Assembly: GCA_017443465.1 (NCBI GenBank)
Contig: JAFRXO010000041.1
Coordinates: forward strand, 58,395 to 122,394
Length of the DNA stretch: 64,000 nucleotides
DNA from: Bacteroidales bacterium
Lineage (GTDB): Bacteria; Bacteroidota; Bacteroidia; Bacteroidales; UBA932
Direction: 5' to 3'
Under the pieces are notes generated by a model, which worked only from the letters and a program-made list of their open reading frames with translations, was not told the origin of the DNA and did no database searches. The number at the start of each line of letters is the position of its first letter. Within the stretch, counting starts at the first letter, position 1. The position numbers and the translations under genes were made by a program. Shown piece after piece: positions 1 to 64,000 of the stretch.

Positions 1-2
1 TC

Positions 3-1355
3 CTCAACAACGCCGTCAATCACGGAATCATGACTCCGTTGGGCATCCAGCAGGCTGCCGACATCGGGCACTCCATGCTCTTCCTGGTCGACCCGAATCC
101 GGGTCCCGGACTGGGAATCATCCTGGCATGCTGGGTCTTCGGAAAGGGAATGACCAAACAGTCCGCTCCGGGAGCTGCTGTAATCCAGCTTTTTGGCGGA
201 ATCCATGAAATATATTTCCCATATGTCCTCGCGAGACCTGTGCTCCTGCTTCCCGTCATGCTGGGAAATGTCTGCGCGCTGTCATTCTTCACGCTGACTG
301 ACTTCGGACTTGTCGCCCCGGCCTCTCCGGGAAGCCTCATATCCATAATCCTGATGTCTCCGCGGGGAAGGATGCTTATAGGCATAATGGGTGTAATCAT
401 AGGCACAGCTATATCCTTCCTGCTCTCAATCCCGATAATTAAATCCCGGCCGGATTTCCAGGGCGAAGTTGAAGGCGGCCAGCCAACCGGCCAGTCCCTT
501 CCCGGATCATCCGTCCTTACTGCCAATTCAGGCAATACGCAGGGCATCCATAAGATAATATTCGCCTGCGATGCAGGTATGGGATCCAGCGCCTTGGGAG
601 CCACCAGGTTCAAGGCCAGGCTTATGAAAGCGGGGCTCGCTGACATCCTCTGCTCCAATGCAGCAGTCGATGAAATTCCTGCGGATGCAGACCTCGTCAT
701 ATGCCAGCAGACCCTTGCCGAGCGGTCCGCCTCAGTACTCGCCTCACGTGCGGGGATACCTCCCGAAAAGGCTGCAGCCCAAGTAATCCCGCTTGTCAAT
801 TTCCTTTCCGACCCTGCCCTGGACGCCCTGATCGGGCAACTTCAGGAATCACATTCTTCCGGCCCCGCGTCAGCTGTGCCGGCTGAGACTCCTGCCGAAA
901 AGCCCGGATCATATGACGGCAATGCCATACTCAGAGCCGAGGACATATGCCTCGGTCTGCCTTCGGAGTCCAAAGAATCGGCCATACTCCGAGCCGGACA
1001 TATGCTCGAAGCATCGGGACGGGTCGGATACGGATATGCCGAGGCCATGCTCGAGCGCGAAAAGGCCGTCTCGACATATATGGGCATGGGCATTGCTATC
1101 CCCCATGGCACATCGCAGGCCAAGGAAAAGATCCTCAAAAACGGAATAGTGGTCCTTCAGTATCCGGATGGTGTGGACTTCGGAGAAGAGAAAGCTAATC
1201 TCGTCATAGGAATTGCCGGAGAGGGAGATGACCACCTGGACATCCTGGCTCGGCTTTCGGAGACGCTTGGAGACGAGGAAGTCCTTCAAAAGCTTTTCAG
1301 CACCGATGACCGGAACTATGTCCTGGAGACCCTCGGAGGGCACAAAGAAAACTAA
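3..1355 (+). CDS. mtlA: PTS mannitol-type transporter EIICBA, 5'-truncated by the window edge
   Basis: Membrane permease and phosphotransferase of the mannitol/fructitol PTS class: it imports a hexitol and phosphorylates it using phosphate relayed from HPr. The reading frame is open to the left edge, so the N-terminal part of EIIC is missing. The visible start carries the EIIC signature LNNAVNHG..TPLGIQQ. An EIIB domain follows, with the phospho-cysteine in ACDAGMGSS (codon 567-569). EIIA is at the C-terminus, with the active histidine in IAIPHGT (codon 1104-1106). Domain order C-B-A is that of enterobacterial MtlA. HPr begins 12 nt downstream, so this is one operon. Mannitol specificity is inferred from the EIIC/EIIB motifs; another hexitol is possible. 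A complete PTS is uncommon in Bacteroidales. Confidence 0.93.
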   Translation, partial: LNNAVNHGIMTPLGIQQAADIGHSMLFLVDPNPGPGLGIILACWVFGKGMTKQSAPGAAVIQLFGGIHEIYFPYVLARPVLLLPVMLGNVCALSFFTLTDFGLVAPASPGSLISIILMSPRGRMLIGIMGVIIGTAISFLLSIPIIKSRPDFQGEVEGGQPTGQSLPGSSVLTANSGNTQGIHKIIFACDAGMGSSALGATRFKARLMKAGLADILCSNAAVDEIPADADLVICQQTLAERSASVLASRAGIPPEKAAAQVIPLVNFLSDPALDALIGQLQESHSSGPASAVPAETPAEKPGSYDGNAILRAEDICLGLPSESKESAILRAGHMLEASGRVGYGYAEAMLEREKAVSTYMGMGIAIPHGTSQAKEKILKNGIVVLQYPDGVDFGEEKANLVIGIAGEGDDHLDILARLSETLGDEEVLQKLFSTDDRNYVLETLGGHKEN

Positions 1356-1366
1356 TAATCTAACAT

Positions 1367-1630
1367 ATGACAACAGAATCCATAACAATAGAGGCTCCCA
1401 ACGGTCTTCATGCCCGTCCGGTCACTGAACTGGTCCGCCTGGTAAAATCCTTTGCAGGCACTAAGGTTACCTTGGCTACCGCGGCCCGCGAAGTCAGGGC
1501 AGACAGCATGCTTTCAATCCTGTCACTCGGGCTCAAGAAAGGGACGGAAGTAAAAGTATCCGCAGACGGTCCGCAGGAAGAGGAAGCAGTTAAGGCAATT
1601 GTCGAATCGATCCGCTCAGTAACAGAATGA
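1367..1630 (+). CDS. ptsH: HPr phosphocarrier protein
   Basis: Small cytoplasmic carrier (87 aa, normal family length) that passes phosphate from EI to the EIIA domain. The active histidine is His15 in NGLHARP. A serine at position 47 in RADSM lies where the regulatory Ser46 of other HPr proteins sits; no HPr kinase gene is in this window, so regulation by it is unproven. The start codon sits in the context CATATG. The gene lies 11 nt after the EIICBA stop, and its own stop overlaps the start of ptsI (ATGA), implying coupled translation. Confidence 0.95.
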   Translation: MTTESITIEAPNGLHARPVTELVRLVKSFAGTKVTLATAAREVRADSMLSILSLGLKKGTEVKVSADGPQEEEAVKAIVESIRSVTE

Positions 1631-3228
1631 CAACCCTCTCTACCCGGACATATGTCAAAGGCCTTGCAAAAGGGAAAGCTCTTTTCCTTAAGAAAGGCTG
1701 TGGCCATAGCCATGAGGCCCCTCAAGGCAGTCCCGAAGAAGAGATGGAGCGCCTTGGAAAAGCCTTCGACAGAGTCCGGAATGACATAGGAGAAGCTGCC
1801 GCAAAGGCGGGAGAATCCCTTCGGGAAATACTGTCTGCCCATCTTGAGATGCTTGAGGACCCTATGCTACATGACGGGATCCAGGACAAGATCCTTTCCG
1901 GCGGCCTAAGTGCCCCTCAAGCCGTAAAAGAGGCCTGCGAAGAGCTCCAGGCTATGTTCGATGCCATAGATGACGAGTATCTCCGCGCCCGGAAAGATGA
2001 TGTCCGTGACATATGCGGACAACTCCTCAGCGCATTGACGGAAAAGGCCGGTATCGGGCCTTCTCCCATCCCGCAGGGTTCAGTGCTCGTAGCCGAAGAA
2101 ATTCTTCCGTCCGATGCAGGAAAAGTCGATTTCAACCGCCTGGGAGCAATAGTCACCAGACTCGGAAGCATCACCAGCCATGCCGCAATCATTGCCCGCA
2201 GCTACGGAATCCCCGTGCTGATGGGCATCCCTGTCGAGAGGATCAATGATGGGGACCTGCTCCTGGTCAACGCCCTGGACGGCACCCTTACGGTGAATCC
2301 GGACGAAAAGACGGAAGCAGAATTCGACAAACTCCTCGCGAAAGAAATGGCGCGTGGAGCAGAAGCATCAAGCCAGGCTTTCAAGACCGCAGTCACCCGC
2401 GACGGAAAAACAATCATGGTATATGCCAACGCCGGCTCAATCGGAGATGTCCGGAAGGCCATTGAAGGCGGTGCGGACGGAATCGGCCTTTTCCGGAGCG
2501 AATTCCTCTTCATGCAGGACGAGAGCCTTCCAAGCGAGGAAAAACAATATGAGGCTTACAGGGACGCAGTCCTCATATGCAATGGCAAACCTGTCACTAT
2601 CAGGACTCTGGACATTGGCGGAGACAAGGCTCTCCCCTGCCTCGGCCTGCCACGCGAAGAGAATCCATTCCTGGGATTCAGGGCAATCCGCATCTCACTC
2701 GCCCGCCCGGAGATCTTCAAACCCCAGGTCCGGGCGATACTCAGGGCTTCCGCCCACGGCCCGGTTCGGATCCTTCTCCCGATGATCACTACATTGGATG
2801 AGATACGGCATGCGCGCAGCATTATTTCCCAGTGCATGAATGAACTGGACCGCGAGAACATTGCATATGACAAAGCAATCCCTGTCGGGATAATGGTGGA
2901 AACTCCCGCCGCAGTCCTGATGGCAGATGAATTCTCCAAAGAAGCTGATTTCTTCAGCCTGGGCACCAATGACCTCACCCAGTACATACTTGCCGCAGAC
3001 CGCGGAAACAACGCCATATCAGAGCTTTACGATCATATGAACCCAGCCGTTCTCCGCGCTGTCTCCATTACTGCCAAGGCAGCCAGGGAGAGCGGTATTC
3101 CAGTATGCGTATGCGGAGAAATGGCTGCGGACGAACAAGCCGTCAAGCCCCTTCTGGAATCAGGTGTGGACTCTCTTAGCGTTCCTGCTCCCGTCATAGC
3201 AAAAACTAAAATAATCATATCAGAATGA
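1627..3228 (+). CDS. ptsI: PTS enzyme I, phosphoenolpyruvate-protein phosphotransferase
   Basis: Cytoplasmic enzyme that takes phosphate from phosphoenolpyruvate and gives it to HPr. The phosphorylated histidine is His185 in GSITSHAAIIAR. The PEP-binding barrel shows LFRSEFLFM, the RTLDIGGDK block and the C-terminal active cysteine near residue 496 (VCVCGEMA). At 533 aa it is somewhat shorter than the common 570-575 aa EI, with the shortening mostly at the N-terminal part. It overlaps ptsH by 4 nt (ATGA) and the next gene by 4 nt (ATGA), so four genes form one tightly coupled operon. Confidence 0.95.
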   Translation: MTTLSTRTYVKGLAKGKALFLKKGCGHSHEAPQGSPEEEMERLGKAFDRVRNDIGEAAAKAGESLREILSAHLEMLEDPMLHDGIQDKILSGGLSAPQAVKEACEELQAMFDAIDDEYLRARKDDVRDICGQLLSALTEKAGIGPSPIPQGSVLVAEEILPSDAGKVDFNRLGAIVTRLGSITSHAAIIARSYGIPVLMGIPVERINDGDLLLVNALDGTLTVNPDEKTEAEFDKLLAKEMARGAEASSQAFKTAVTRDGKTIMVYANAGSIGDVRKAIEGGADGIGLFRSEFLFMQDESLPSEEKQYEAYRDAVLICNGKPVTIRTLDIGGDKALPCLGLPREENPFLGFRAIRISLARPEIFKPQVRAILRASAHGPVRILLPMITTLDEIRHARSIISQCMNELDRENIAYDKAIPVGIMVETPAAVLMADEFSKEADFFSLGTNDLTQYILAADRGNNAISELYDHMNPAVLRAVSITAKAARESGIPVCVCGEMAADEQAVKPLLESGVDSLSVPAPVIAKTKIIISE

Positions 3229-4151: not shown

Positions 4152-5252
4152 TCAGTCTATATCCCCGATCCCGGAATTGCGGACAGCATCCCGGGCCTCC
4201 TCGAATTTCTGCTGCATAGTCGGATTCCCGCGAGTCAGTCTCTTGATAGTCAATTCCTCCGCCTTGTTGTTTGCAAGGCGGAGATTGTTTCCTGAACTGA
4301 GAAGGTTGTCCTTAATCTTCTGAAGATGCGCTATGGACTTGTCAATCTCCTCGATGGCATTTGAGAACTTCTCGGTGGCAAGACGGTAATTCCGGCTGAA
4401 TCCGTCCTTGAAATCCATCAGCCTCTGTTCGAAATTCGTCACATCGACAGACTGGCTCCTGGCAATTGCAAGCGCCTTCTTGTACTCGAGACTCTTTTTC
4501 GATGTCTGGCACAACAAGGTAATCATAGGGATAAAGAACTGCGGACGGATGACGTACATCTTCGGATACCTGTGTGACACATCCACAATGCCGCCATTGT
4601 AAAGTTCGCTGTCCGGCTCCAGCAAGGACACCAGCACCGCGAATTCACATCCTTTCTTGTTGCGGTCGGAATCCATCTTGGCAAGGAAATCTTCATTGCG
4701 GTGTTTCGCAGCCGTCGCGTCATTCTCATTCTTCATCTCGAACAGGATTGAGACGTACTCGGTCCCGTCTTCGCTGTCCCTGAAAATGAAATCGCCTTTG
4801 GTGCCCTCTACGACCTCATTGTCCTTTTCAAAATATGCATTCGGGAAGAGGGGACGTATGCGCTCGAATTCATTGCGGCAATGTACTTCCAGCGACTCCC
4901 CTACCATCTTGGTGGACATCCTGGCCTTGAAGTCCTTGTAGTATTCCACCAGTTCCTTCTGCTGTTTCAGTTCCGTTTCATACCTGTCCCTTAGGCCCTG
5001 CTCCCTGACCATGGAGGCTTCCTTCTGCGACTGAAGCTGCCTGTTGAGTTCTGCAACAGTCTCTTTGTAAGCCATTTCCGACTTCATCACGGCAACCTGC
5101 TGGCGTGCCTGCTCAGCAGCATGCATCTCCGCGATCCTGCGCTCCAGCTCTTCCTTGAAGGCACCGTTCCTGACCTGGGAGAGAAGCTGGGCATATCCGG
5201 CTTCATCCACAGTAAAAGTCTTTCCGCAATGAGGGCACACCAATTCTTTCAT
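4152..5252 (-). CDS. DUF2130 domain-containing protein
   Basis: 366 aa. The N-terminus has a zinc-knuckle-like pair (VCPHCG, Cys6 and Cys9). A long charged coiled coil follows at about residues 28-110, rich in E, K, Q and R. The globular DUF2130 domain contains [21 protein letters not shown]-like and GDFIFRD segments, which resemble restriction-endonuclease-like folds in this family. The function of DUF2130 proteins is not established. The start codon is in a CATATG context and lies 25 nt downstream of a TAATTTTG box. It is convergent with the secreted propeller gene (9 nt gap). Confidence 0.8.
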
Positions 5253-5277
5253 ATGACAGGCGTTTTATACATATGCA

Positions 5278-5285
5278 CAAAATTA
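5278..5285 (-). promoter_or_regulatory. Bacteroidota -7 box upstream of the DUF2130 gene
   Basis: The minus strand reads TAATTTTG, matching TAnnTTTG, 25 nt before the start at 5252. I see no good -33 TTTG at 19-21 nt, so this call is moderate. Confidence 0.45.
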
Positions 5286-5322
5286 TCAAAAATATCGCTA
5301 TCTTGTAAGAAATCATTCCAAT

Positions 5323-5754
5323 ATGTACAAGTACACAGTAAGCCCGGACAACTCCCAGACATATGTGCTGAGCATTGCCAATCATCAGGACATTGTGCCT
5401 GCCATCACCGCATTCTGCAAAAGGACCGGAATCACAAGCGGAGAAATCCGCGGACTGGGGGCCGTCAACAAGGCTGTAATCCGCTATTACAGTCCGGTAA
5501 CGAAGAGATATGAAGACCATGAATTCTCCGAGCAGATGGAGATAGCGTCGCTTACGGGGAACATATCAACGAAAGACGGGGAAATCTACCTGCATATCCA
5601 TGCCGTGTTCGGGAGAAGTGACTGCAGCTGCATCGGAGGCCACCTGCTGGACGCCACTGTCAGCGGAGCCTGTGAACTGTTCGTAGAGAACCTGAACGTG
5701 AAGGCCGGAAGGAAATACGACGAGGAAACCGGCCTCAACCTCTACCTTTTATAG
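5323..5754 (+). CDS. PPC/DUF296 domain protein
   Basis: 143 aa, a complete stand-alone PPC (plant and prokaryote conserved, DUF296) domain. The hallmark HIHAVFG is at residues 91-97, followed by CSCIGGHL (GGHL at 105-108), the conserved metal/trimer motif region. Bacterial members are trimeric, and their role, possibly DNA or nucleotide related, is not settled. The gene is divergent from the DUF2130 gene across a 70-nt gap, and its last 20 nt overlap the 3' end of the convergent polymerase gene. Confidence 0.82.
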   Translation: MYKYTVSPDNSQTYVLSIANHQDIVPAITAFCKRTGITSGEIRGLGAVNKAVIRYYSPVTKRYEDHEFSEQMEIASLTGNISTKDGEIYLHIHAVFGRSDCSCIGGHLLDATVSGACELFVENLNVKAGRKYDEETGLNLYLL

Positions 5755-6889
5755 GCCTGGTCCTGTCATATTCCTCATCCCATTTCCGGTAATAGTCCAT
5801 TTTCTCATCCTCAAAAAGAGACAGTTGATATATGGACTCATGTGACAGGTTGAATACACCGAGACCCACCTGCCGGATCGGGGTACCTCCGGTCCATATC
5901 TGTGAGAGAAGGCCGCGGGCAGCGAAGAGGATAAGGGCCGTGACATTGGTATGCTGGGGCATCTGCCCCTGACGGGATACAGTGTGGAAGTCCTTGTCCT
6001 TGACGAAAACCGAAACCCCTTTCGCATAGAAATTATCCCTGCGTATACGGTAGCATACGTGGCATGCCAGGTTGAACAGGATACGGTCAACCTGTTCGGG
6101 ATCCGTAACGTCCTTTGGGAGGGTATGCTCATTGCTGTAACTCTTCGGCTCATCTGCTTCCGTTACCACCGGAGAATCATCTATCCCATTGGCACTCAGA
6201 TGTATCTGATGTCCGAATTTATCTCCGAGCATCCTGGACAGATAGGCCTGAGGGGTTTTGGCAAGTTCTCCTATGGTCTTGATGCCATATGAAGTTAGTT
6301 TGGCTTCGGTCTGCTTTCCGACCCAAAGCAGATCCCGCACAGGAAGGGGCCACATCTTTGACGGGATCTCATCCTCCCACAGGGTGTGCACCTTGTCTGG
6401 CTTCTCGAAATCGGACGCCATCTTGGCCAGCAGTTTGTTATGGGCGACCCCGACATTGACTGTGAATCCCAGGGTCCGGAATATCTCGTCCTTGAGCTCA
6501 CGGGCCACATCCACCGGATCCTTGCCTGAAAGACGGAAGGTCATGTCCAGAAAACACTCATCAATGGAAAACTGCTGAAGCACAGGAGAATACTTCTTGC
6601 ATATGGCTATGAATCCCCTGGAGCACTCCCTGTACCAAGCGAAATCAGAATGGACTACGACCAGGTCGGGACACTTCCTCAGAGCCATGCTGAGAGGCTC
6701 CGCGGTGTTGATACCGTATTTCTTCGCGGGGATGGACTTGGCAGTGACAATGCTGCGGCGGTCTTCGGGATCTCCGGATACGACAGCAGGGACAAGCCGG
6801 ACGTCCGGCTGTCCCTGCGAAATCATCTTAACCGCCGTCCATGAGAGGAAAGCGGAATTGACGTCGATGTGGAATATCGTACGGATCAA
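5735..6889 (-). CDS. dinB: Y-family DNA polymerase, DinB/Pol IV-like
   Basis: Translesion DNA polymerase, 384 aa. Catalytic acids are visible: Asp9 in FHIDVNSAF, then Asp110-Glu111 in SIDECFLD. The C-terminus carries a canonical beta-clamp motif, QLSLF, at 355-359. The start is TTG: it is the only start before the essential FHIDVNS motif, because the same frame has a TAA at 6899-6901. It overlaps the stop of the upstream cysteine hydrolase (TTGA), so the two are probably co-translated. The 3' end overlaps the convergent PPC gene by 20 nt. Confidence 0.9.
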   Translation of the reverse strand: MIRTIFHIDVNSAFLSWTAVKMISQGQPDVRLVPAVVSGDPEDRRSIVTAKSIPAKKYGINTAEPLSMALRKCPDLVVVHSDFAWYRECSRGFIAICKKYSPVLQQFSIDECFLDMTFRLSGKDPVDVARELKDEIFRTLGFTVNVGVAHNKLLAKMASDFEKPDKVHTLWEDEIPSKMWPLPVRDLLWVGKQTEAKLTSYGIKTIGELAKTPQAYLSRMLGDKFGHQIHLSANGIDDSPVVTEADEPKSYSNEHTLPKDVTDPEQVDRILFNLACHVCYRIRRDNFYAKGVSVFVKDKDFHTVSRQGQMPQHTNVTALILFAARGLLSQIWTGGTPIRQVGLGVFNLSHESIYQLSLFEDEKMDYYRKWDEEYDRTRPIKGRG

Positions 6890-7419
6890 TACAGGTCTTT
6901 AACGCTGCAGACTTTGGCTCCGTAAATCTTCTCGACGTACTTGAGGGCTCCTACATAACCTTCCTCGGTGTCAGTGTCGGTAGTCTCCCTGGGGAAGACG
7001 ATATCGAAGCCACGGAAGAAAGCATCTGCCGAAGTGTGACGGCAGCAGCAGTCAGCCTGCCAGCCGGTGACGACTACCGTGTCAACATCCATCTCCCTGA
7101 GGATCAGGTCGAGAGGAGTCTGGAAGAAAGCGCTGTAGGTCTTCTTGGGAATGATGACATCTCCCTCCTTCGGCTTGAGTTCCTCAATCACCTCTGCACC
7201 ATAGGTACCTTCGACGGCGTGGGGACCCCATACCCTGAATTCCTTGTCCACTTCCGGGGTGTGGGAATCATTGGCGTAAACGACAGGCATTCCCTGGGAA
7301 CGGGCATGGTCGCACAGTTCCTTGATGGGTTCGATGATATGGTGTACACGGGGTGAGGCGATAGGGCCGGTCACGAAGTCGTTGAGCATGTCAACTACGA
7401 TAACTGCATATTTTTTCAT
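6886..7419 (-). CDS. Cysteine hydrolase, isochorismatase/nicotinamidase family
   Basis: 177 aa from the ATG at 7419; in-frame ATG 7425 and an earlier start at 7449 exist, but MKKYAVIVVDMLNDF is the usual N-terminus. The catalytic triad is visible: Asp10 in VVDMLNDF, a lysine at 92/93 in PKKTYSAFF, and cysteines 124-126 in VTGWQADCCCRHT. The preceding residue W-Q-A-D and the DSHTPEV metal-like motif fit nicotinamidase-type hydrolases, but the substrate cannot be named. The stop overlaps the TTG start of the DinB-like polymerase. Nicotinamide salvage next to DNA repair is an inference only. Confidence 0.82.
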   Translation of the reverse strand: MKKYAVIVVDMLNDFVTGPIASPRVHHIIEPIKELCDHARSQGMPVVYANDSHTPEVDKEFRVWGPHAVEGTYGAEVIEELKPKEGDVIIPKKTYSAFFQTPLDLILREMDVDTVVVTGWQADCCCRHTSADAFFRGFDIVFPRETTDTDTEEGYVGALKYVEKIYGAKVCSVKDLY

Positions 7420-7462
7420 GGTCATAAAAAATTTCCGATACCTCTGCAAATTTGGTTCCTAT

Positions 7463-8365
7463 TTATTCACTTTCTTGTTTTGAACTCGATTTCCTCATAA
7501 AAATCATGCATGCAGCGCCCGCCAGCATCAAATAAATCCCTGCATAGACACCAGGCAGCCACGGGTCGCTGACGATGTCAAGGGTACAGGTGTCACTGTC
7601 CGCTCCCTTGGTTTCGTCGAAATCGCTCAGGTAAATCTTCCTTCCATCAATCCTGAAAGGCTTGTTTACCGAAAGTACCGCTGACTCTTCTTTCCCGCCA
7701 CGGGACCATATGCTTATGTCTGCAATATATTGTATACGGCCGGGCTGGTCTTCCCTGATGTCGAAATCCCTGAGAAGGATGGAGATAGGAAGCTCGTGCA
7801 TTTTGCCATTATCGTCAACGGCCATCTTCTCAGGTAACTTGTCATTGACTGCCATAGACAGCATCGACATGTCAGCACTGCCAAGGGTCCCGGTCAGAAG
7901 GACGAGGAGCAGTCCGAGATGAAAGGCAAAAGCCGGCAGTCTGCGCCATTTCCAGTACCTTCCTTCTTTCAGCACAGCCTGGCAGACAATAAGGGCCATC
8001 CAGAGATATAAGAGGACGAAAGGCCAGCTGGATAGCATCCTGGAGAAACCGAGGAGGCCGACAGGGGCATCGGCAGAATCATTCTGGCGGGTAAGGCCCA
8101 TTATGACCGTAATCCCGCATACGAACATCATGGAAGGCACGGCTGCCTTCAGGCTTCCCATGAACTCGAAGAAATAGAATCTGTTACGCAGCAGGAATAT
8201 CGCCAATGAGCTCCCCAGGAAGAGGATCAGGGCAATCAGGTTCACAGGCCAGGCGAACAGATTCCAGTCCAGAGGCCCGGCTATCAATTGAAGTATGACA
8301 CATATGGCAAAAAGACAGATACAGATTACGCTGCCTTCTTTCATTTTCCAGGGTTTGGACCACAT
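7463..8365 (-). CDS. ResB-like cytochrome c biogenesis membrane protein
   Basis: 300 aa from the ATG at 8365. Longer starts exist (ATG 8386), but the promoter at 8402-8433 would leave that start only about 9 nt of leader, so 8365 is preferred. Three to four membrane segments occur in the N-terminal half, then the ResB-like FHLGLLLVLLTG segment. A periplasmic beta domain contains VNKPFRIDGRKIYLSDFD, and a last helix follows before a basic, short cytoplasmic tail. ResB/CcsB works with CcsA in haem attachment to c-type cytochromes. No ccsA or cytochrome gene is adjacent here, which is unusual for the family in Bacteroidales. Confidence 0.7.
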   Translation of the reverse strand: MWSKPWKMKEGSVICICLFAICVILQLIAGPLDWNLFAWPVNLIALILFLGSSLAIFLLRNRFYFFEFMGSLKAAVPSMMFVCGITVIMGLTRQNDSADAPVGLLGFSRMLSSWPFVLLYLWMALIVCQAVLKEGRYWKWRRLPAFAFHLGLLLVLLTGTLGSADMSMLSMAVNDKLPEKMAVDDNGKMHELPISILLRDFDIREDQPGRIQYIADISIWSRGGKEESAVLSVNKPFRIDGRKIYLSDFDETKGADSDTCTLDIVSDPWLPGVYAGIYLMLAGAACMIFMRKSSSKQESE

Positions 8366-8401
8366 AGTTTTTTCTCCGTATGTCATAGATTGCAAAACAT
8401 A

Positions 8402-8433
8402 CAAAATTATAATGATAATTCGTTATAAACAAG
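8402..8433 (-). promoter_or_regulatory. Promoter of the ResB-like gene
   Basis: The minus strand has CTTG (8430-8433), a 20-nt spacer and TAATTTTG (8402-8409). This agrees with the Bacteroidota -33/-7 pattern TTTG-N19/21-TAnnTTTG, with one mismatch in the -33. It predicts a start of transcription near 8395. Confidence 0.65.
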
Positions 8434-8462
8434 TCCGGTTCCTCCGTTCTCAGCACTTAACT

Positions 8463-8494
8463 ATTGTATTTACCGTCCGTTATGACTATTTTTG
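8463..8494 (+). promoter_or_regulatory. Promoter of the TonB receptor operon
   Basis: ATTG (8463-8466), a 20-nt spacer and TATTTTTG (8487-8494): the Bacteroidota pattern with one mismatch in the -33. It is divergent from the ResB-like promoter, and the -33 elements of the two are about 30 nt apart. Confidence 0.65.
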
Positions 8495-8510
8495 AATATA
8501 GAAACCGACT

Positions 8511-10721
8511 ATGCTTGCGACCATCTTGACATGTCTGGTGGTGATGACGACGCCAATTACCGACACTCTCAGCGAATCGAGGGTTACGGCAGCGTCGAAA
8601 CTGGCTGTCCCGCTCGCACAGACAGCATCCCTCACTGCTTCCGTATTCATGGAAGACATCAACCAGAGAGGGCTTTCCGCGCCCAAGGCTCTCAGCGGTA
8701 TCGTTCCCAACCTGGACATGCCAGACTATGGTTCCAGCATGACATCATCAGTGTATATGAGGGGGTTCGGCTCCAGGATCGACAACCCGGTAATCGGCCT
8801 GTACATCGACGACATCCCCATTATGGACAAGAATGCATATGACATCCAGTTCCTGGACATCAGGCGGGCAGATTTCCTCAGCGGGCCCCAGGGGACCATA
8901 TTCGGAAGGAACTCGATGACAGGGCTCCTCTCACTTACAACCCTGGGTCCCGGAGACTATGACGGAACCTTCGCCGAAGTGAGATATGGAGCGGCTAATG
9001 GATTCCAGGCAAGAGCCTCCCACTACACTGACAACTGGTCCGCATCCATCGCCTACAATCACAGTGACGGTTTTTACACGAACATTTTTGACGGCAGTAA
9101 AGACAACAGCAATTCCCTATCGGCCAGGATCCGCTTCAACAAAGACATCTCATCCAGGGTCAGGTTCGAGAACATACTGTCCGCGAACCTTCTTGGAGAG
9201 GGAGGCTATCCTTATAGGCAATATATTGACGGAGAATTACTTCCAGTCAATTACAACCGAAGGTCACACTATTCCAGGCAGTCTGTCACCGAAGGTGCCA
9301 AATTCAACATCTACCTCCCCTCTCTGTCAATCGGAAGCATAAGCAGCCTGCAGCTACTGTTTGACAGGATGGACATGGACCAGGACTTCACGACAGCCGA
9401 CATGTTCACACTCAGGCAGGGCCAGAAACAATGGACACTGACCCAGGAGGTAATAGTGCGTCCGGAAAACCATCCGTCCTGGTGGAACTGGCAGAGCGGA
9501 GTCTTCGGTTTCTACAAACACAACCACATGGAGGCTCCAGTGACATTCCGCAAGGACGGGATTGATGCCCTGATCCTTTCAAATGCAAACAAGGGACTTT
9601 CGACAATAGGCTATAAAACTGATTTCCTGGAAGATGAGTTCCCCATTTATAGTGATTTCCTCATTTCCACCTATAACTTGGCCCTGTACCACGAATCCAG
9701 GTTCAGCCTCGGGAGATGGCTCCTGACCGCAGGCGTCAGGCTGGACTATGAAGGGAACCATATGTCATATGACTCTAAGGCGACCATCAATATCGCGACA
9801 ATACCTCTCGAGCGAGAATTCACCCCTGGAGATTACCGTGAAAGCCCCACCAAATACAAAGGCAGCATAGGCAATAATTATCTGGAGTTCCTTCCCAAGG
9901 TCTCGGCCATCTACGATTTTGCACTCAAAGACGGGCACGACCTGAAAGCATTCATATACGGGGCGAAGGGATACAAAGCCGGAGGTTTCAACACCCAGAT
10001 ATTCTCTGACATCCTCCAGAACCGGATAATGACGGAACAGTACGGAGTCCACATCACTGACGAGGACGTCACTGCCGGAAATACGGTTTACAAGCCCGAG
10101 TCCAGCCATAATGCCGAAGCCGGAGTCAAGTACTCCCGCATCGGGCGGAACTATAGGCTGAACTTCTCTTCTTCTGTATTTTATATCGACTGCCATGACC
10201 AGCAGATCACCGTCTTTCCTCCGGGAAAGACAACCGGAAGGATGATGAGGAACGCAGGGCGCTCGCATTCATATGGCCTCGAGGCAATGATGTCTTTTAC
10301 GTGGAAAGGACTGGATATCAATGCTTCATATGGCTACGCCAACGCCGTCTTCGACAAATACGATGACGGGAACCAGGACTACTCGGGAAAGCACATCCCC
10401 TATGCCCCCCAGAACACCATATATGCCAGGGCGTCATATGATTTCACATTATCCGGAAAGTTGCAGGGCATAGTCATAGGTACGGACTGGAATGCCCGGG
10501 GCAGGACCTGGTGGAATGAGGACAATAGCCTGAGCGACGGTCTCCACGGGTCACTGGGAGCGGATTTTTCCTTCAGATTCAGGAAAATCACTATCTTTGG
10601 AAGATTGGATAACTTGACCGATGCCCGCAACCCGGTCTTTTACTTCAAATCTGTGGGGAACAGTTTCTTCCAGATTGAAAAGCCGTTCCGCTGGCATATA
10701 GGAATCAGAATAACCTTATAA
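8511..10721 (+). CDS. TonB-dependent outer membrane receptor
   Basis: 736 aa. A short hydrophobic N-terminus is followed by a plug domain: ALSGIVPNLDMP, VYMRGFGSRIDNPVIGLYIDDIPI, and FLSGPQGTIFGRNSMTG. A beta-barrel follows, ending in the typical terminal aromatic strand (PFRWHIGIRITL). There is no N-terminal carboxypeptidase-like extension and no SusD partner, so it resembles iron-chelate or cofactor receptors more than glycan SusC proteins; the ligand is unknown. A lipoprotein gene begins 12 nt downstream, and the nitroreductase and sulfoxide reductase genes follow closely, suggesting an operon. Its own promoter precedes it. Confidence 0.88.
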   Translation: MLATILTCLVVMTTPITDTLSESRVTAASKLAVPLAQTASLTASVFMEDINQRGLSAPKALSGIVPNLDMPDYGSSMTSSVYMRGFGSRIDNPVIGLYIDDIPIMDKNAYDIQFLDIRRADFLSGPQGTIFGRNSMTGLLSLTTLGPGDYDGTFAEVRYGAANGFQARASHYTDNWSASIAYNHSDGFYTNIFDGSKDNSNSLSARIRFNKDISSRVRFENILSANLLGEGGYPYRQYIDGELLPVNYNRRSHYSRQSVTEGAKFNIYLPSLSIGSISSLQLLFDRMDMDQDFTTADMFTLRQGQKQWTLTQEVIVRPENHPSWWNWQSGVFGFYKHNHMEAPVTFRKDGIDALILSNANKGLSTIGYKTDFLEDEFPIYSDFLISTYNLALYHESRFSLGRWLLTAGVRLDYEGNHMSYDSKATINIATIPLEREFTPGDYRESPTKYKGSIGNNYLEFLPKVSAIYDFALKDGHDLKAFIYGAKGYKAGGFNTQIFSDILQNRIMTEQYGVHITDEDVTAGNTVYKPESSHNAEAGVKYSRIGRNYRLNFSSSVFYIDCHDQQITVFPPGKTTGRMMRNAGRSHSYGLEAMMSFTWKGLDINASYGYANAVFDKYDDGNQDYSGKHIPYAPQNTIYARASYDFTLSGKLQGIVIGTDWNARGRTWWNEDNSLSDGLHGSLGADFSFRFRKITIFGRLDNLTDARNPVFYFKSVGNSFFQIEKPFRWHIGIRITL

Positions 10722-10733
10722 CTTATTATAAAC

Positions 10734-11183
10734 ATGAAAAAAATTATCTCTGTCCTTTTCATGGGCATCGCACTGATGCTGTGCTCATGCGAACCTGATG
10801 CAGACCAGAACTTTGAGAAACAGACCTTTTCCGGTACTGTAAGCGTTGAGTATTATGGTGAGAAATACGACAACGAGAATATCATTGTCGAGGTTGAGGA
10901 AGCTTCGGAAGGGCTCCTGGACATCACTATCCGCAGCATCAAGTTCGTCCCTAAGATGCCTGTCACAATCGACGTGACCTACCATGATGTCCCCTACACC
11001 AAATCCAAAGACAACATCACTTTCTTCATCGGCACCATTATCCCCTACATGGGTAATACACCGGTAGAGAAGTACAAATCCCAGTCTCTGGCAGGGCTGA
11101 TTACCAACAAAGGCGGAATCTCATTCAGCGTCCAGATCGGGGATTATCCGACTACCTATCTCGGAACAAGGATAAACAAATAA
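10734..11183 (+). CDS. Small lipoprotein, calycin-like or beta-sandwich
   Basis: 149 aa. The signal peptide ends in the lipobox LCSC (lipidated Cys19). The mature part alternates hydrophobic strands (TFSGTVSVEYYGEKY, LLDITIRSIKF, VTIDVTYHDVPY) and ends in a GTRINK tail. This resembles the calycin-like lipoproteins common in Bacteroidales, but I cannot name a family with certainty. It lies 12 nt after the TonB receptor, so it may be the accessory surface lipoprotein of that uptake system. Confidence 0.72.
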   Translation: MKKIISVLFMGIALMLCSCEPDADQNFEKQTFSGTVSVEYYGEKYDNENIIVEVEEASEGLLDITIRSIKFVPKMPVTIDVTYHDVPYTKSKDNITFFIGTIIPYMGNTPVEKYKSQSLAGLITNKGGISFSVQIGDYPTTYLGTRINK

Positions 11184-11195
11184 ACTGCTGACTCC

Positions 11196-12342: not shown

Positions 12343-12366
12343 GGTGCTTCATTTTTGTTTCTGATG

Positions 12367-12374: not shown

Positions 12375-12375
12375 G

Positions 12376-12410: not shown

Positions 12411-12418
12411 TATTTTAC

Positions 12419-12437: not shown

Positions 12438-12438
12438 C

Positions 12439-53123: not shown

Positions 53124-53128
53124 CAGAC

Positions 53129-53953
53129 ATGTACTACAGAAAAATCATCCTCGCGGCCATGCTGGCCATATGCTCCTGCTCCGTCAGGGAAGAACGGGAA
53201 GGCTGCCCCTGCCTGCTCACAATCACCGCTGACAGGGAATCGGTGTGGCACTACACTATCCCCCAGGGCGAATCGGTGTACAGACAGTCAATCTCCTATC
53301 CTGTCAGCCTGAAAATCAACATGGGAAGCTATCTGGCATATGACAATCCAGGAGCCTTCTCAGCAAAGCAGGATGAGGAAAAAATCGAGATAGTAAAGGG
53401 GCAGGCCCTTGTCACCTACCACACTTCCCTGGTAAACGCCAGGGAGGACAGGGACGGGATCACCATATCCAAGGGACAGCAATGGGACAGGCTTTTCATA
53501 GGCCGGGACGAAGTCTTCTGTGAAGGGGAAACAGCGAGGGACACCTTGCATTTCCGCAAAGAGCATTGTATCATATGGCTCCATATGGCCGGAATGCCGG
53601 CCGGAAACGAGTGTCCCTTCTCCATCCTGCTATCAGGGAATACAGTCGGGATTGAACCATACACCCTGAGTCCTGTGAAGGGAGAATTCCAATGCGTGCC
53701 GGAACAACTGGAAACATTTGTATTCCAGGCCGTTATTCCTAGGCAGACAGACGACTCCCTGTATCTGGACCTTACCGATGACTCAGGAAGGGCCCACCGC
53801 TACGAAATAGGGAAAAGCATAGCGGATGCAGGATATGACTGGGATAAAGAAGACCTGGACAACCTTACGTTGAGGATAGAATACGGCATACCCGGAATCA
53901 CAGTCACGGTTCTCCCCTGGGAGGAATATCCCGTACCGGACCTTACCCTATAG
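53129..53953 (+). CDS. FimB/Mfa2-family pilus anchor-like lipoprotein
   Basis: 274 aa. The signal MYYRKIILAAMLAICSC (lipidated cysteine at 17) is followed by REEREGCPCLLTI, which matches the CPCxLxI start of FimB/Mfa2 anchor proteins. It is all-beta, with the repeated pattern of two transthyretin-like domains. In Porphyromonas such proteins anchor the pilus to the outer membrane and control its length. No major pilin gene (FimA/Mfa1) is seen next to it, so it may be an orphan anchor or serve a pilin encoded elsewhere. Confidence 0.75.
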   Translation: MYYRKIILAAMLAICSCSVREEREGCPCLLTITADRESVWHYTIPQGESVYRQSISYPVSLKINMGSYLAYDNPGAFSAKQDEEKIEIVKGQALVTYHTSLVNAREDRDGITISKGQQWDRLFIGRDEVFCEGETARDTLHFRKEHCIIWLHMAGMPAGNECPFSILLSGNTVGIEPYTLSPVKGEFQCVPEQLETFVFQAVIPRQTDDSLYLDLTDDSGRAHRYEIGKSIADAGYDWDKEDLDNLTLRIEYGIPGITVTVLPWEEYPVPDLTL

Positions 53954-53983
53954 CTGTTTGCCCGGGGTGCGGCGGCCAGAGAC

Positions 53984-54871
53984 CTACTGCACCCTGAGCA
54001 ACTCAGCTATCTTGTTCTTCAAGGCCATGAATTGTGACTCGTCGTATAGACGGGTGAGGAAGACAACTGTTCCGCTCTTGTCAATCAAGACATTACGGGT
54101 TATCCCCGAATTCGGGAGCGCGTAAAGATTGTATATACCGGCGCCGGGGTCGAATCCGATGTCATATGTAATACCGGTAGCCTTGATCTGGGCTTCGATT
54201 TTCGATGCGGGTTCATCCCTGTCTATCGCGATGAGAGCAAAGTCAGGATTCTTCATCAGGGGCTTCCAGATCTCTGCCTCGATATGGGGCATCTCCTCAC
54301 GGCACACCCCGCACCAGCTTGCTGTGAATTGGAGCATCACCACCTTTCCCTTGAGGCTGGAAAGAGTCACCTTACGGGTTACCGCGGAGCCGCCCACATA
54401 GTCCGGAGCATATGCTGCCTGACGGTTGTAGAGTTCTACCGTGAAATCCGGAGCAGGTTTTCCGACCGCAACCAGGAAATCATTCTCGTCCGCAAGGTCC
54501 AGTCCGGCCTGGGACCAGGCCACGAGTCCCCCTTCCAGGACAGTGATGTCGAATCCCTTACCGCCAAGAAGCCGGGCAGCCTCGGAACTGAGGGCCCCGC
54601 TGCGGCAATATAGTCCTACTCCCCTGTCTTTCTTGAGGGAAGAAATGGCCTCGTCAAGGAAGTCATCTGCCTTGAAATCCAGATTGACGGCCCCGGGGAT
54701 ACGTGCTTCGCTGAACTCCTTTGCCGTCCTCAGGTCCACGACCTGGAGAGAGTCCATGGCAATCGCCGACTTGAACTCGAAAGGAGTAAGAGACCTGTGC
54801 CTCTCACCGCAGGAAGTAACGGCGAGCAGTAAAAGCAGGCCGAGGCAGAAAAGTAATGACCGCTTGATCAT
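53984..54871 (-). CDS. Rhodanese-thioredoxin (TlpA-like) fusion lipoprotein
   Basis: 295 aa from the ATG at 54871. The signal ends in VTSC, giving a lipidated cysteine. The rhodanese domain has VVDLRTAKEFSEARIPGAVNLD and the active cysteine in LYCRSGALSSEAA. The TlpA/thioredoxin domain has the catalytic FTASWCGVCREEMP. It would handle sulfane sulfur or reduce disulfides in the periplasm. The partner enzyme is not next to it. It lies 4 nt downstream of the GH2 stop, so the genes may be read together. Confidence 0.88.
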   Translation of the reverse strand: MIKRSLLFCLGLLLLLAVTSCGERHRSLTPFEFKSAIAMDSLQVVDLRTAKEFSEARIPGAVNLDFKADDFLDEAISSLKKDRGVGLYCRSGALSSEAARLLGGKGFDITVLEGGLVAWSQAGLDLADENDFLVAVGKPAPDFTVELYNRQAAYAPDYVGGSAVTRKVTLSSLKGKVVMLQFTASWCGVCREEMPHIEAEIWKPLMKNPDFALIAIDRDEPASKIEAQIKATGITYDIGFDPGAGIYNLYALPNSGITRNVLIDKSGTVVFLTRLYDESQFMALKNKIAELLRVQ

Positions 54872-54875
54872 ATGC

Positions 54876-57221
54876 TTACCTCCCGATATCAACCAGGCCG
54901 CCTATCCCTTCCTTCTCCAGATAAGCGGAGACTGTACCGGAAGACTTGCATTCGACATCGATGCAGGCACGGCCGTTGGCCAGCTGTATGCGGCGGCTGC
55001 CGTGGGATGTGCCCATGTTATCGAGCAGCCTGCCGTCTCCTGCAAAAGCGAAACGCACGAAATTGGCAGCATCCAGGCACGGGACTCCGGATGCATCAGA
55101 GAACAGGATGTTCACACGGTACCTGTCACCTCCCAGAGGTTTCACGTCGAACTTGACCTGTGCGGGGGCTCCCCACTTGCGGGTCTCATAGAATTGGCTG
55201 ATTTCGTCTTCGATGACCGTCTTGCCCTTGGTGGCGACGGCTTTCAGGCTGTTATCCCCGGGAGCGAATACTACATCCCAATGGAAGCCGGCTGCCGGAT
55301 AATCGTCCACATTGCGGGTCTTGACACCCAGAGACTTGCCGTTCAGGAACAACTCCACGCGGTCACAGTTGCTGTACACAAGTACCTCATGGCTGTCGGA
55401 AGGAGCGCCCCACCTTACAGGCCATGTGTGCCCGTAGATATGCGCCATAGGCTTTTCGGTCCAGTAGCTCTGGAACACATAATAGCTTTCCTTCGGAGTC
55501 CCGTCATGTTCGAGGACACCCTTCTGGTTCATGTAAGGGATAGGATTGTCATGCCGGATGGGAGTAGCGAAGTCCCTGAATGTCCAGAAAGCACTTCCGG
55601 TCAGGTTGTCCATATGGGCCTGCTTGTGAAGGTTCCAGTCGAAAAGATGGATGATATAGGTCTCGCTCCAGTCCCCGTTGGCATCGTTGCGTTCCAGATT
55701 CCCGAATTCCTTGCCTTCAGTGTGACGATGGGGATGGCTGTCTCCCCCCCACTCGGCATGGAAGAATCTGGGATACTTTTCGATAGCGGCGAGGTCCTTC
55801 TTGGGATAATCGAAATATTTTCCGGAATACCATCCGTCCCATATGGAAGGAGAATAGACGTCCACAACGTCAAAGTTCTTGTCATTACGCCTGGTGCACG
55901 TCGGACGGCTCGGATCGATGGAATGTGACAACTCGGTAAGTTCGCCCATGAAATCGTGTATAGCATCCGCGTCGAACACCTCGAAGTCACCGGGCCAGTC
56001 GGTCTCGTTGCCCATTCCCCATAGGATCACCGAAGTATGGTTCCTGTGCTGCGCGATCATATTCCTGAGCATGCGCCTTGCCTGCTCCTTGTAATCGTCT
56101 CCTCCAAGTCCTCCCCTGCACCACGGAATCTCTTCCCAGACCATGATGCCTAGGCTGTCGCAGAGGCTGAGCACCATCTCGCTCTGCTGATAATGGCCGA
56201 GGCGGACGAAATTCACTCCCATATCCTTCATCTGTTGCATCTGCCTCCTCATCACAGCATCGGGGAGAGCCGCACCTACACCTGCAAAGTCCTCATGGAT
56301 GTGAGTTCCCTTAAGCAGCACCCTCTCTCCATTGAGGAAGAAGGGACCGTGCTCACGGAATTCCTGGGTACGGAAACCGAAGTTCTCCGTGAATTCCTGC
56401 GTATTGCCCTCAGAATCCGTCCATTTCACCCTGCAGGAGTAGAGGACCGGGGTCTTGTCCGACCACAGACGCGGCTTCTTGACCGAAGCTACCCTGCCGG
56501 GAGAATTCGAGGTGGAAATCACCTCGCCTTCCGGTGAGAGGACATCGATTGCAATCTTCCCGCCGTTTACACCGGTGCAGGTGAACTCCACGTCGACATA
56601 TCCATTCTTGGCATCGAGGGAAGGCTTGATAACGAATGCATTGACATATGAAGACGGCATGAAGACCAGGTTCAGCGGCCTGTAGATTCCTCCTGCGATA
56701 GTGAAGTCTGAGATCTGCGAAGGGATTATCTCGAAATTACGGGTGTTGTCACACCTGACTGACAATGTCACGCTCTTCTTTCCGGCCAGGGCATCGGTAA
56801 TGTCAACGCACCAGCCGTCATAGCCTCCGGTGTGACTTCCGACATGCTTGGAGTCTATCCAGACATCGGTAACCTGGCCTGAGCCTTCGAATTCCAAAAG
56901 AGTCCTTCCGCCCTTGAAAGGATTGGCCACCTCCAGGGTCCTGGTGTACCACCCGGCTCCCTGATAATAGTTGAGGTCCGGATCAACGGAATCCTCGGCA
57001 TTATAACAATGAGGAAGTGTAACATCCGTCCACAGAGGATATTCCGTAGGCTTACCAGGCTGGGACTCGCGGAGTATCTCCCAGACTCCTCCCAGGTCCT
57101 GGCGCACGAACTTCCAGCCATCCGACAGAGGAGTCTTTACAGATGAATAGACTGTTGCAGCCCCTGAGGGGATGGCGGCCAGCGAAAGGGCCGCTGACAG
57201 GATTAAAGATCTGATCTTCAT
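54876..57221 (-). CDS. GH2 beta-galactosidase-like glycoside hydrolase
   Basis: 781 aa with a signal peptide (MKIRSLILSAALSLAAIPSGAA). The domain order is sugar-binding, immunoglobulin-like, TIM barrel and C-terminal extra domains, the classic GH2 layout. The acid/base glutamate is in LWGMGNETDW and the nucleophile glutamate in FHAEWGGD. It may act on beta-galactose, beta-mannose or beta-glucuronic acid; the substrate is not settled. It starts 3 nt downstream of the alginate-lyase-like gene in the same direction, so these two form an operon. Confidence 0.87.
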   Translation of the reverse strand: MKIRSLILSAALSLAAIPSGAATVYSSVKTPLSDGWKFVRQDLGGVWEILRESQPGKPTEYPLWTDVTLPHCYNAEDSVDPDLNYYQGAGWYTRTLEVANPFKGGRTLLEFEGSGQVTDVWIDSKHVGSHTGGYDGWCVDITDALAGKKSVTLSVRCDNTRNFEIIPSQISDFTIAGGIYRPLNLVFMPSSYVNAFVIKPSLDAKNGYVDVEFTCTGVNGGKIAIDVLSPEGEVISTSNSPGRVASVKKPRLWSDKTPVLYSCRVKWTDSEGNTQEFTENFGFRTQEFREHGPFFLNGERVLLKGTHIHEDFAGVGAALPDAVMRRQMQQMKDMGVNFVRLGHYQQSEMVLSLCDSLGIMVWEEIPWCRGGLGGDDYKEQARRMLRNMIAQHRNHTSVILWGMGNETDWPGDFEVFDADAIHDFMGELTELSHSIDPSRPTCTRRNDKNFDVVDVYSPSIWDGWYSGKYFDYPKKDLAAIEKYPRFFHAEWGGDSHPHRHTEGKEFGNLERNDANGDWSETYIIHLFDWNLHKQAHMDNLTGSAFWTFRDFATPIRHDNPIPYMNQKGVLEHDGTPKESYYVFQSYWTEKPMAHIYGHTWPVRWGAPSDSHEVLVYSNCDRVELFLNGKSLGVKTRNVDDYPAAGFHWDVVFAPGDNSLKAVATKGKTVIEDEISQFYETRKWGAPAQVKFDVKPLGGDRYRVNILFSDASGVPCLDAANFVRFAFAGDGRLLDNMGTSHGSRRIQLANGRACIDVECKSSGTVSAYLEKEGIGGLVDIGR

Positions 57222-57224
57222 AAC

Positions 57225-58451
57225 TTACTTCAAAGTCATATTTTTTGCGTCCTCAGGAGAAAGATAGAGAAGGAACCATACGTCCCCGGCCTTACGGGCG
57301 CTGTTGGCTAGCGCGATGTCACGGTAATTGGTCTTCGTGCGGTCGAACATATAGATCCTGTAAAGGTTGTCGCAGACTGACTGCTGGGAATCTTCCCAGC
57401 GGCCTATTTGCTGGTGAGGCCACGCGCTGACTTCCTTCCCGACATATGGGATCAGGAAATCCATGGCCTTGGTGATGCACCTTCCGTCAGGAGAGACAGC
57501 GTCATATATGCGTGTCTTCATTCCCTTGGCCATGTACATTATATCGACCATATGCTCGATATTGTAGGTGCTGTACCAGTAGGAAAGGGTACGGCGGAGC
57601 TCCTGCGGCTGGCTGCCGTCGGGCTCGATCTGGGGGAAGAGCCTGCGGGTCGGGAACTCGTTGATTACGGCGTTCGCGGTCTTCTTGTCACCTGCGAACC
57701 TGGCAAAACAGATTACCTGGGCGTCATATGCAATCGAATGGTTGTTGGCGGCATTGCGCTCTCCGTTGCCCATCTCGCTGGTGAGATACCACTGGACAAA
57801 CTCGGCGAACCACTTCTTAAGGGCCTTGTAATCAGACTTGGGAAGCATCTTACCGTCCCGGAGCATGTACATCGCCGGCAGCATCTCCACGAAAGTGTAA
57901 GCGTCGATGAGTCCGGCATGGCTGCCTTTGTCCCCGTCATGCCCGCGCCTGACCTGGGCATAATTGAAATTGGGATTCATTAGTGTCTCCGGGTCGAGGA
58001 ACCACACGCGGAGCTGCCTGACCGCTGCGTCCGCATATTTCTTCTGGCCGCTGAAGTACCACGCCAGGGTAAAATACCTGACCCTGTCACACATATCGCT
58101 CAGACGATAGCGGTCAAGTTCATATATCTCAGGATTGCTCTCGCCGTCCCTGGTGACATACGGCAGACCGTCTGGGGTGTCCGGATTGGGCCAAGTGTAA
58201 CGTGCCTGGCTATAATAATCGTGTTTATTCCCGCTTACCGATACCCGCTTTTTGATCATCACGCTCATATCCGGCTCTGAAAGCATCGCATCAGCCCTCT
58301 CCATAAGGTTCTTCAGGGATGCCGCATATACTGGCAGGGATGCATTTTTCTTGACTTGGGAAAGCTGTGACTGATCCCAGAAAGTCTGCGCCTTGACTGC
58401 CGCGCAACTCACGGACAAAAGGGCGATCAGAAGGATTTTTTTGATCTGCAT
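57225..58451 (-). CDS. Alginate-lyase-domain protein, PL38-like
   Basis: 408 aa with a signal peptide (MQIKKILLIALLSVSCAAVKAQ). It is an (alpha/alpha)-type toroid of the alginate lyase superfamily. The motif YYSQARYTWPNPDTPDGLPY and NNHSIAYDAQ with following tyrosine/histidine-rich segments match the group that includes PL38. PL38 enzymes cleave uronic-acid glycans such as glucuronan or alginate-like chains. It is the first gene of the unit with the GH2 gene, so a uronic-acid-containing substrate is plausible. Confidence 0.78.
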   Translation of the reverse strand: MQIKKILLIALLSVSCAAVKAQTFWDQSQLSQVKKNASLPVYAASLKNLMERADAMLSEPDMSVMIKKRVSVSGNKHDYYSQARYTWPNPDTPDGLPYVTRDGESNPEIYELDRYRLSDMCDRVRYFTLAWYFSGQKKYADAAVRQLRVWFLDPETLMNPNFNYAQVRRGHDGDKGSHAGLIDAYTFVEMLPAMYMLRDGKMLPKSDYKALKKWFAEFVQWYLTSEMGNGERNAANNHSIAYDAQVICFARFAGDKKTANAVINEFPTRRLFPQIEPDGSQPQELRRTLSYWYSTYNIEHMVDIMYMAKGMKTRIYDAVSPDGRCITKAMDFLIPYVGKEVSAWPHQQIGRWEDSQQSVCDNLYRIYMFDRTKTNYRDIALANSARKAGDVWFLLYLSPEDAKNMTLK

Positions 58452-63804: not shown

Positions 63805-63834
63805 AGCTGAAAAACTTCCGGATACAAATATAAT

Positions 63835-63874
63835 ATAAAAAAACGCCCGGGCGTCGTCATGACGTCCGGGCGTT
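63835..63874 (-). terminator. Rho-independent terminator of the rRNA operon
   Basis: On the minus strand a 14-bp stem with one mismatch (arms at 63842-63855 and 63861-63874, AACGCCCGG type) and a 5-nt loop is followed by a T-run (63843-63837). It lies 7 nt after the 5S end. Confidence 0.85.
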
Positions 63875-63881
63875 CGAAAAA

Positions 63882-63990
63882 CGGCAGCTGCCTACTCTCC
63901 CAACTGGTGGGTCAGTACCATCGGCGCAAGCGGGCTTAACTTCTCTGTTCGGGATGGGAAGAGGTGGTTCCCCGCCGCAATGGCCACCGC
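63882..63990 (-). rRNA. rrf: 5S ribosomal RNA
   Basis: About 109 nt. The minus strand begins CGGTGGCCATTGCGG, then the loop GGGGAACCACC, CCCATCCCGAACAGAGAAGT and the end GGGAGAGTAGGCAGCTGCCG. The two ends pair (CGGTGGC with GCTGCCG, two G-U pairs). This matches Bacteroidota 5S. The 23S and 16S genes would lie beyond the right edge. Confidence 0.93.
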
Positions 63991-64000
63991 AGTATAGTTC

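Follow-up and report, generated by a model that had tools for sequence, protein, structure and literature searches.

In a 64,000-nucleotide stretch of a Bacteroidales draft genome (GCA_017443465.1, contig JAFRXO010000041.1, positions 58,395 to 122,394; hereafter the window), the hexamer CATATG forms a highly iterated palindrome (HIP) that is real, strong and restricted to its lineage, and its distribution is a case of selection-like maintenance of a HIP1-type palindrome outside the cyanobacteria. Silent changes completing the exact hexamer were shown to be strongly preferred to those destroying it, in the window's genome as well as in its sister genome, in all reading frames and for every testable base change. 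The explanation favoured here, tentatively and with somewhat less than an even chance of being right, is weak positive selection at each site through an abundant sequence-specific DNA protein, with additive benefit and with the common types of DNA methyltransferase (MTase) not apparent as the reader.

An earlier reading of the letters (the original prediction) had put about 26 copies within the opening 10.4 kb and about 10 between 58.9 and 63.9 kb, and had called the hexamer highly iterated across the window. Exact counts for the two regions are 25 and 10, and the window as a whole bears the claim out:

1..64000, no strand: CATATG, 130 copies by exact count, in coding and intergenic DNA

Zero-order base composition predicts 13.9 copies, i.e., the excess is 9.3-fold, and the density is one site per 492 bp with intergenic and coding DNA taken together. 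Copies in intergenic DNA had been noted before and are confirmed, while the accompanying point that the motif lies on both gene strands says nothing, CATATG being a palindrome. TCCGGA ranks second among the palindromes of the window (56 vs. 17.2, zero-order). An equal excess of all AT-centred palindromes was looked for, and GATATC (12), CTATAG (7), and GTATAC (2), each with 13.9 expected, are not in excess; GAATTC is raised (43), but codon shuffling of 264 kb of the window's genome gives just 145 observed against 107. One-letter variants are not raised to a like degree: with both strands of the window counted, 260 CATATG compare with 12 to 65 for the words that differ from it by one mismatch. 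A second-order Markov model of the 264 kb predicts 127 copies where 484 are observed. The maximal-order Markov expectation for the window (112) was discarded as self-contaminated, because its 5-mers are made by the motif.

The draft assembly that contains the window spans 2.65 Mb in 81 contigs (96.4% complete) and holds 4230 CATATG in 2.646 Mb, i.e., 1599 per Mb or one per 625 bp, and the density is even over the sampled stretches (1.45 to 2.55 per kb; four further contigs read N). The exception is contig 8 (L085, 6506 bp), which has one CATATG where the sample density predicts about 12 and may be foreign, recently acquired or a contaminant. Comparison of an RmuC-like protein gave three named relatives, one Bacteroidia and two Bacteroidales metagenome-assembled genomes (MAGs). 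The nearest, at 92% identity, is the uncultured Bacteroidia MAG RUG14879 (G315; hereafter the sister), and thereafter identity drops to about 68% or less (400 genus genomes sampled, 341 with a match). The sister has 3353 CATATG in 2.1 Mb, a density equal to that of the window's genome. The maximum is 1137 among 118 other genomes of the family, 2028 in 2.8 Mb (G302) among 199 other genomes of the genus, a sample that did not include the sister, and 2314 in 5.6 Mb in a set of 392 further genomes from the order; these sets are partly overlapping samples of larger groups, and G302 is the densest genome listed in them after the pair. Within the samples examined the full CATATG state is confined to a species pair, and some relatives have a mild excess over zero-order expectation.

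The excess is not explained by codon or amino acid choice, as had been argued from copies in all three frames. Synonymous codons were shuffled in 213 predicted open reading frames (ORFs) of the 264 kb (greedy choice, at least 100 codons), a procedure that retains the motif's own codons, and 438 coding CATATG were observed against 97.8 ± 8.0 (z 42). By codon frame the counts were 62, 259, and 117 vs. 37, 35, and 26, so that every frame is in excess and the count stays far above a codon-aware expectation. The same shuffle was extended to samples, mostly of 20 kb, from 53 other genomes, 52 of which had coding data, with the top two palindromes listed per genome; CATATG was listed for G206 (15 vs. 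3.8), G302 (30 vs. 16.6), and G130 (8 vs. 4.1), and among the top two per genome no further palindrome was of comparable strength.

A silent-site conversion test looks at places where one letter is free to change silently and the other five already match CATATG, with the expectation taken from codon usage. The motif letter was found in 1367 of 1452 such cases in the window's genome (536.6 expected, odds ratio 27) and in 354 of 394 in the sister (143 expected, odds 15.4), compared with 100 of 350 in 20 genus relatives of similar GC content at third codon positions (105 expected, odds 0.93) and odds of 0.45 in 20 stretches belonging to the family's other genera. Some other genomes gave 3.7 (G206), 2.07 (G302), and 1.99 (G253, from 60 cases only), and the next three palindromes by z gave 1.5 to 1.9. 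Pooled over the three frames, 724 of the 908 silent-accessible places are occupied. It is scarcely credible that the pattern is an artefact of codon, amino acid or mutational composition. The mild excess in some relatives and the odds near 2 in G302 and G253 would suit an artefact, but codon shuffles, frame analysis, matched-codon conservation and independence of the base change contradict it, and none of the codon-aware tests (shuffle, silent-site, same-codon control) brought the excess to expectation.

In the window's genome the preference for the motif letter covers transitions and transversions at positions 1 to 5; position 6 coincides with a third codon base only in Met codons and lies outside the reach of the test. 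The motif letter was present in 102 of 115 four-fold and 67 of 70 two-fold codons for C1, in 448 of 488 cases for A2, 107 of 114 for T3, 185 of 197 for A4, and 448 of 459 for T5. All three alternatives to A2 are opposed (odds 51, 99, and 37), and in the control context xCN-TAC-G the odds are 1.25, with no preference. The odds are 41–54 at positions 2, 4, and 5 and fall to 10–12 at the outermost position 1, yet position 3 is also low (14.6). If equilibrium is assumed, these values correspond to a scaled fixation bias of roughly 2–4 per site (about ln(10) to ln(54)); in the sister the bias is less even. Deamination, Vsr-like repair or any other single mutational process would push one kind of change, and the favouring of every tested change does not fit this.

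The window's genome has 543 [SPTA]-Tyr-[VADEG] places, made up of 448 CATATG, 51 that miss it by one silent letter and 44 that miss it by two, where about 240 two-letter misses are calculated from codon usage without bias. One- and two-letter misses are thus about equally disfavoured, which argues against partial credit for the inner letters, and words mismatched at an inner position stand at 0.45 to 1.05 of the shuffle. That the unit is the hexamer itself, as originally supposed, is supported by the flanks, since the odds stay between 14 and 67 whichever base flanks it, and a longer unit is thereby ruled out. On their respective sides C at -1 (17) and G at +1 (14) have the lowest odds, as would be expected from a dimeric reader touching both half sites of the dyad, and symmetry is suggested, though in part only.

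Comparison with the sister shows that individual sites are kept. The regions that enter the comparison, with CATATG copies outside predicted ORFs, are:

4864..57506, no strand: stretch syntenic with contig 87 of RUG14879, by alignment
5270..5275, no strand: CATATG outside predicted ORFs, identical in the sister
18352..18357, no strand: CATATG outside predicted ORFs, CATCTG in the sister
18672..18677, no strand: CATATG outside predicted ORFs, identical in the sister
35662..35667, no strand: CATATG outside predicted ORFs, identical in the sister

The syntenic alignment covers 52 kb at 82.5% identity. Ungapped aligned CATATG number 105 here and 85 in the sister, with 74 common to both; the 74 of 105 compare with 32.6% identity for all hexamers, and CATATG has the top symmetric score (0.78) among 146 hexamers with at least 60 occurrences. 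Four-fold sites are identical in the sister in 53 of 66 cases inside the motif vs. 50% outside, and in the same-codon control 141 of 165 third positions within the motif were kept against 93 expected. Insertion of a 6-bp unit was rejected as the mode of change, as no window site lies opposite a sister gap and, among the 86 sister sites, a single one meets a gap, of one base; CATATG changes between the species by substitution. Shared and unshared sites have nearest neighbours at 229 and 227 bp, respectively. Spacing is random over the larger sample (coefficient of variation 1.01 vs. 0.99 ± 0.035 simulated), which rules out the even spacing that the window on its own might have suggested (0.87, 428/490).

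Amino acid choice is also shifted toward sequences that permit CATATG. The tripeptide [SPTA]-Tyr-[VADEG] stands at 1.25 of expectation in both species vs. 0.87 in 20 relatives, Ile-[Cys/Trp] at 1.28 here and 1.43 in the sister vs. 0.97, and His-Met at 1.52 here vs. 0.60. As controls, the reversed tripeptide is near 1.1 in both species and the relatives, and [SPTA]-Phe-[VADEG] is near 0.9.

Random spacing, together with sharing that is independent of neighbour distance, makes functions that need one site per kilobase less likely than additive effects per site. In the favoured explanation an abundant sequence-specific DNA protein would read the double-stranded hexamer, and each site would count alone, contributing a small additive benefit and being held by weak positive selection. 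A candidate type of reader would be a chromosome-wide architectural or coating protein, for which the total number of sites matters. It is tempting to go further and to speculate that Bacteroidia possess a methylation-independent, chromosome-wide recognition code, in which one DNA protein reads more than 4000 individually maintained CATATG and the demand for them sets synonymous codons at most accessible places and shifts amino acids; this bolder proposal is possible, though appreciably short of an even chance.

A site-local process of biased repair or gene conversion, in which an enzyme that finds CATATG in one of the two strands of a mismatched duplex steers its repair toward the site and so ratchets the motif upward without benefit to the cell, is unlikely. 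Random spacing and neighbour independence would suit such a local process, as would the convergence of many substitution types, two-step paths included, on CATATG. Vsr-type repair, however, acts on one mismatch type, whereas every type of change tested here is opposed. Furthermore the version set out in the available part of Elhai (2015; PMC4390886) requires a base to be methylated and levels off near one site per 1000 bp, and CATATG is denser without signs of saturation.

Preferential import of CATATG-bearing fragments might likewise drive the motif by recombination, as with the uptake sequences of Pasteurellaceae and Neisseriaceae, and this is rather improbable. Uptake sequences are 9–12 bp long, and one site per fragment should suffice, so that neighbour effects would be expected, and none were seen. 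High copy number and change by substitution rather than insertion are nevertheless shared with uptake sequences, and molecular drive alone can accumulate these through gradual point mutation, according to the part of Bakkali (2007; PMC1939737) at hand. The same part describes known uptake sequences as non-palindromic and in excess in non-coding DNA, with many within genes; CATATG resembles them in its many copies inside genes, but is palindromic and is not favoured in intergenic DNA.

The original prediction was right about the likeness to HIP1, as regards density, palindromic form, frame independence, the hexamer as unit, and conservation; its suggestion of a methylation site with a cognate orphan MTase is not supported. 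As to its further suggestions of a nucleoid-protein site and a repair or uptake signal, random spacing and neighbour-independent turnover speak against versions that would be content with one site per kilobase. Profile searches with PF01555, PF00145, PF02086, PF02384, and PF07669 gave no match over the cut-off in the window's genome or the sister. The first four families were searched in ten genomes and PF07669 in fourteen, and the positive controls matched in 11, 10, 4, 13, and 11 of 14 control genomes, respectively. At least one match over the cut-off was found in G107, G253, G302, G204, G134, G176, and G206, and none in G251, G239, and G188, which lack the CATATG state, so the negative result is not telling by itself. 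Three weak PF07669 matches below the cut-off, in frames of 253, 319, and 340 amino acids, are possibly PrmC or tRNA MTases. With a sixth family, PF05063, the control was silent and the search is uninformative. A 5-methylcytosine deamination signature was ruled out, as position 1 shows no C-to-T excess: CATATA accounts for 0 of 23 single differences from the sister, and the odds against T at position 1 (10–12) lie between those against G and against A. This test is silent on adenine methylation.

An orphan MTase for CATATG, of a type outside the searched families or missing from the bins, with methylation-directed repair or an epigenetic role retaining the sites, is unlikely. The sharp hexamer specificity would resemble that of a restriction-modification enzyme, and the alternate HIPs described in the available part of Elhai (2015; PMC4390886) accompany cognate MTases. 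The five major DNA MTase families, with no match over the cut-off in either genome, speak against it, with the reservation that the window's genome is a draft, and so does the lack of a deamination signature as far as cytosine is concerned.

Several observations weigh against maintenance by a DNA-binding protein. Biased repair would leave an identical substitution pattern, and no candidate reader protein was found in a search that covered the six MTase families only. Outer-mismatch words are raised against the shuffle (CATATC 1.30, AATATG 1.44, CATATA 1.46), and outer letters may therefore earn partial credit; the half site xCATA[T] before a non-G base has odds of 3.0 vs. 1.6 in a 12-genome comparison set. 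The flank symmetry is partial, as A at +1 has odds of 67 and its mirror, T at -1, 28.5 (no significance test). The sister has uneven odds (3.7 at position 3, 4.0–6.5 at position 1, 16–68 at the others), and its His-Met is barely raised (1.09). Conversion differs among genes slightly beyond chance (chi2/df 1.28). Finally, intergenic density (1.22 per kb, 24 sites in 19.6 kb) is below coding density (1.88 per kb) and far under what a 40-fold bias yields in neutral DNA, and convergent gaps of the window's genome have no CATATG in 3163 bp (0.7 expected, zero-order). Intergenic DNA is constrained, with 76% identity to the sister vs. 50% at four-fold sites, but this may not wholly account for the shortfall. 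Long codirectional gaps may also hide unpredicted genes.

Because the shortfall is not fully explained, a small place is left for a role at the RNA level, with CAUAUG in transcripts recognised by an RNA-binding protein or nuclease. The higher coding density and the empty convergent gaps (also 0 vs. 0.1 in the sister) would agree with this. Intergenic DNA as a whole is enriched, if less so than genes: codirectional gaps hold 19 sites vs. 2.9 expected here and 9 vs. 0.9 in the sister, and divergent gaps 8 vs. 2.3 here but 1 vs. 0.7 in the sister, whose sample is small. The enriched divergent gaps of the window's genome, the weakest flanks that mirror each other, and conversion that is flat along genes (0.78–0.86) speak against an RNA-level signal, which is very improbable.

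Among known systems the closest is HIP1 (GCGATCGC), which like CATATG is a clade-restricted palindrome occurring about once per kilobase; CATATG is found in any reading frame. It differs in its AT core, its length of 6 rather than 8 bp, and its occurrence in Bacteroidia, so that it is not HIP1 proper, which is GCGATCGC in a cyanobacterium; what it has in common with HIPs is the over-representation and the independence of codon and frame. CATATG is also the site of NdeI-type restriction-modification. Restriction sites are usually avoided in genomes, and here the identical hexamer is strongly favoured, neither avoided nor neutral as a resident restriction site would be. In cyanobacteria HIP1 and its substitutes are tied to cognate MTases, and the GC-rich alternate HIPs GGCGCC, GCsGC, and rCCGGy accompany gained MTases of matching specificity and reach about 500–2500 per Mb, except rCCGGy, as far as the available part of the study goes (Elhai, 2015; PMC4390886). 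That part also lists some HIP1 genomes without an intact CGATCG MTase and calls HIP1 maintenance a mystery. The density of CATATG falls within the range of these short replacement motifs of single genomes, but it is common to two species despite 50% identity at four-fold sites, and no matching MTase was found in the five families. A literature search over titles and the beginnings of abstracts, with most subscription papers outside its scope, returned no report of CATATG as a HIP or of any HIP in Bacteroidia; one source (PMC5317091), in the part available, concerns an 18-nt extragenic repeat.

If the bolder proposal of a recognition code is true, HIPs arise outside cyanobacteria and without a link to MTases. 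That link has been the main clue to HIP1 so far, and the present case combines an unrelated hexamer and another phylum with five MTase families not found. The maintenance signal in two genomes makes a binding protein, a repair bias and uptake directly testable, and finding CATATG unmodified would exclude the methylation model for this clade. The silent-site conversion test, which needs five of six letters, may also serve as a simple scan for such motifs in other genomes.

Some further features of the window and of other palindromes were observed. Two intervals in the window are:

10441..13475, no strand: longest site-free interval, flanking sites starting at 10435 and 13476
20635..20646, no strand: tandem CATATGCATATG (G000:C7:79029-79040, here in window coordinates)

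Besides the 3' end of an ORF (8511–10721) with weak TonB-receptor matches, the site-free interval takes in an ORF without a Pfam match, one that is nitroreductase-like, one with a GAF domain, and the greater part of another whose resemblance to ThrE stays under the curated cut-off. GTATAC is strongly avoided, with 79 copies in the window's genome and silent-site odds of 0.11 vs. 0.33 in 20 relatives, and its count next to the 4230 CATATG is a non-neutral baseline, since it is avoided both here and in relatives. GTCGAC is likewise low in the window's genome (odds 0.41), and TCCGGA is mildly over-represented in many genus samples (silent-site odds 1.56 here, 1.34 in the sister, 1.48 in 20 relatives, and 1.86 in G302). 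G206 (stretches L054 and L145–L154) is in a partial CATATG state; beside its CATATG odds of 3.7 it has ATATAT at 2.5 and a near-absence of CCATGG, CGATCG, and TCATGA (odds 0.03–0.06), the latter probably reflecting restriction avoidance. In another genus of the family (G003, stretch L126) TTGCAA occurs 28 times vs. 9.4 after codon shuffling and is possibly a weak iterated palindrome. At least 80 loci with three close CATATG occur in viral contigs; of the 80 counted among the matches listed, most have a low excess outside the cluster, and IMGVR_UViG_3300021373_003356 (L225) shows a word bias, with 25 CATATG (2.0 expected) and 15 GTATAC in the 7.2 kb outside the matched cluster.

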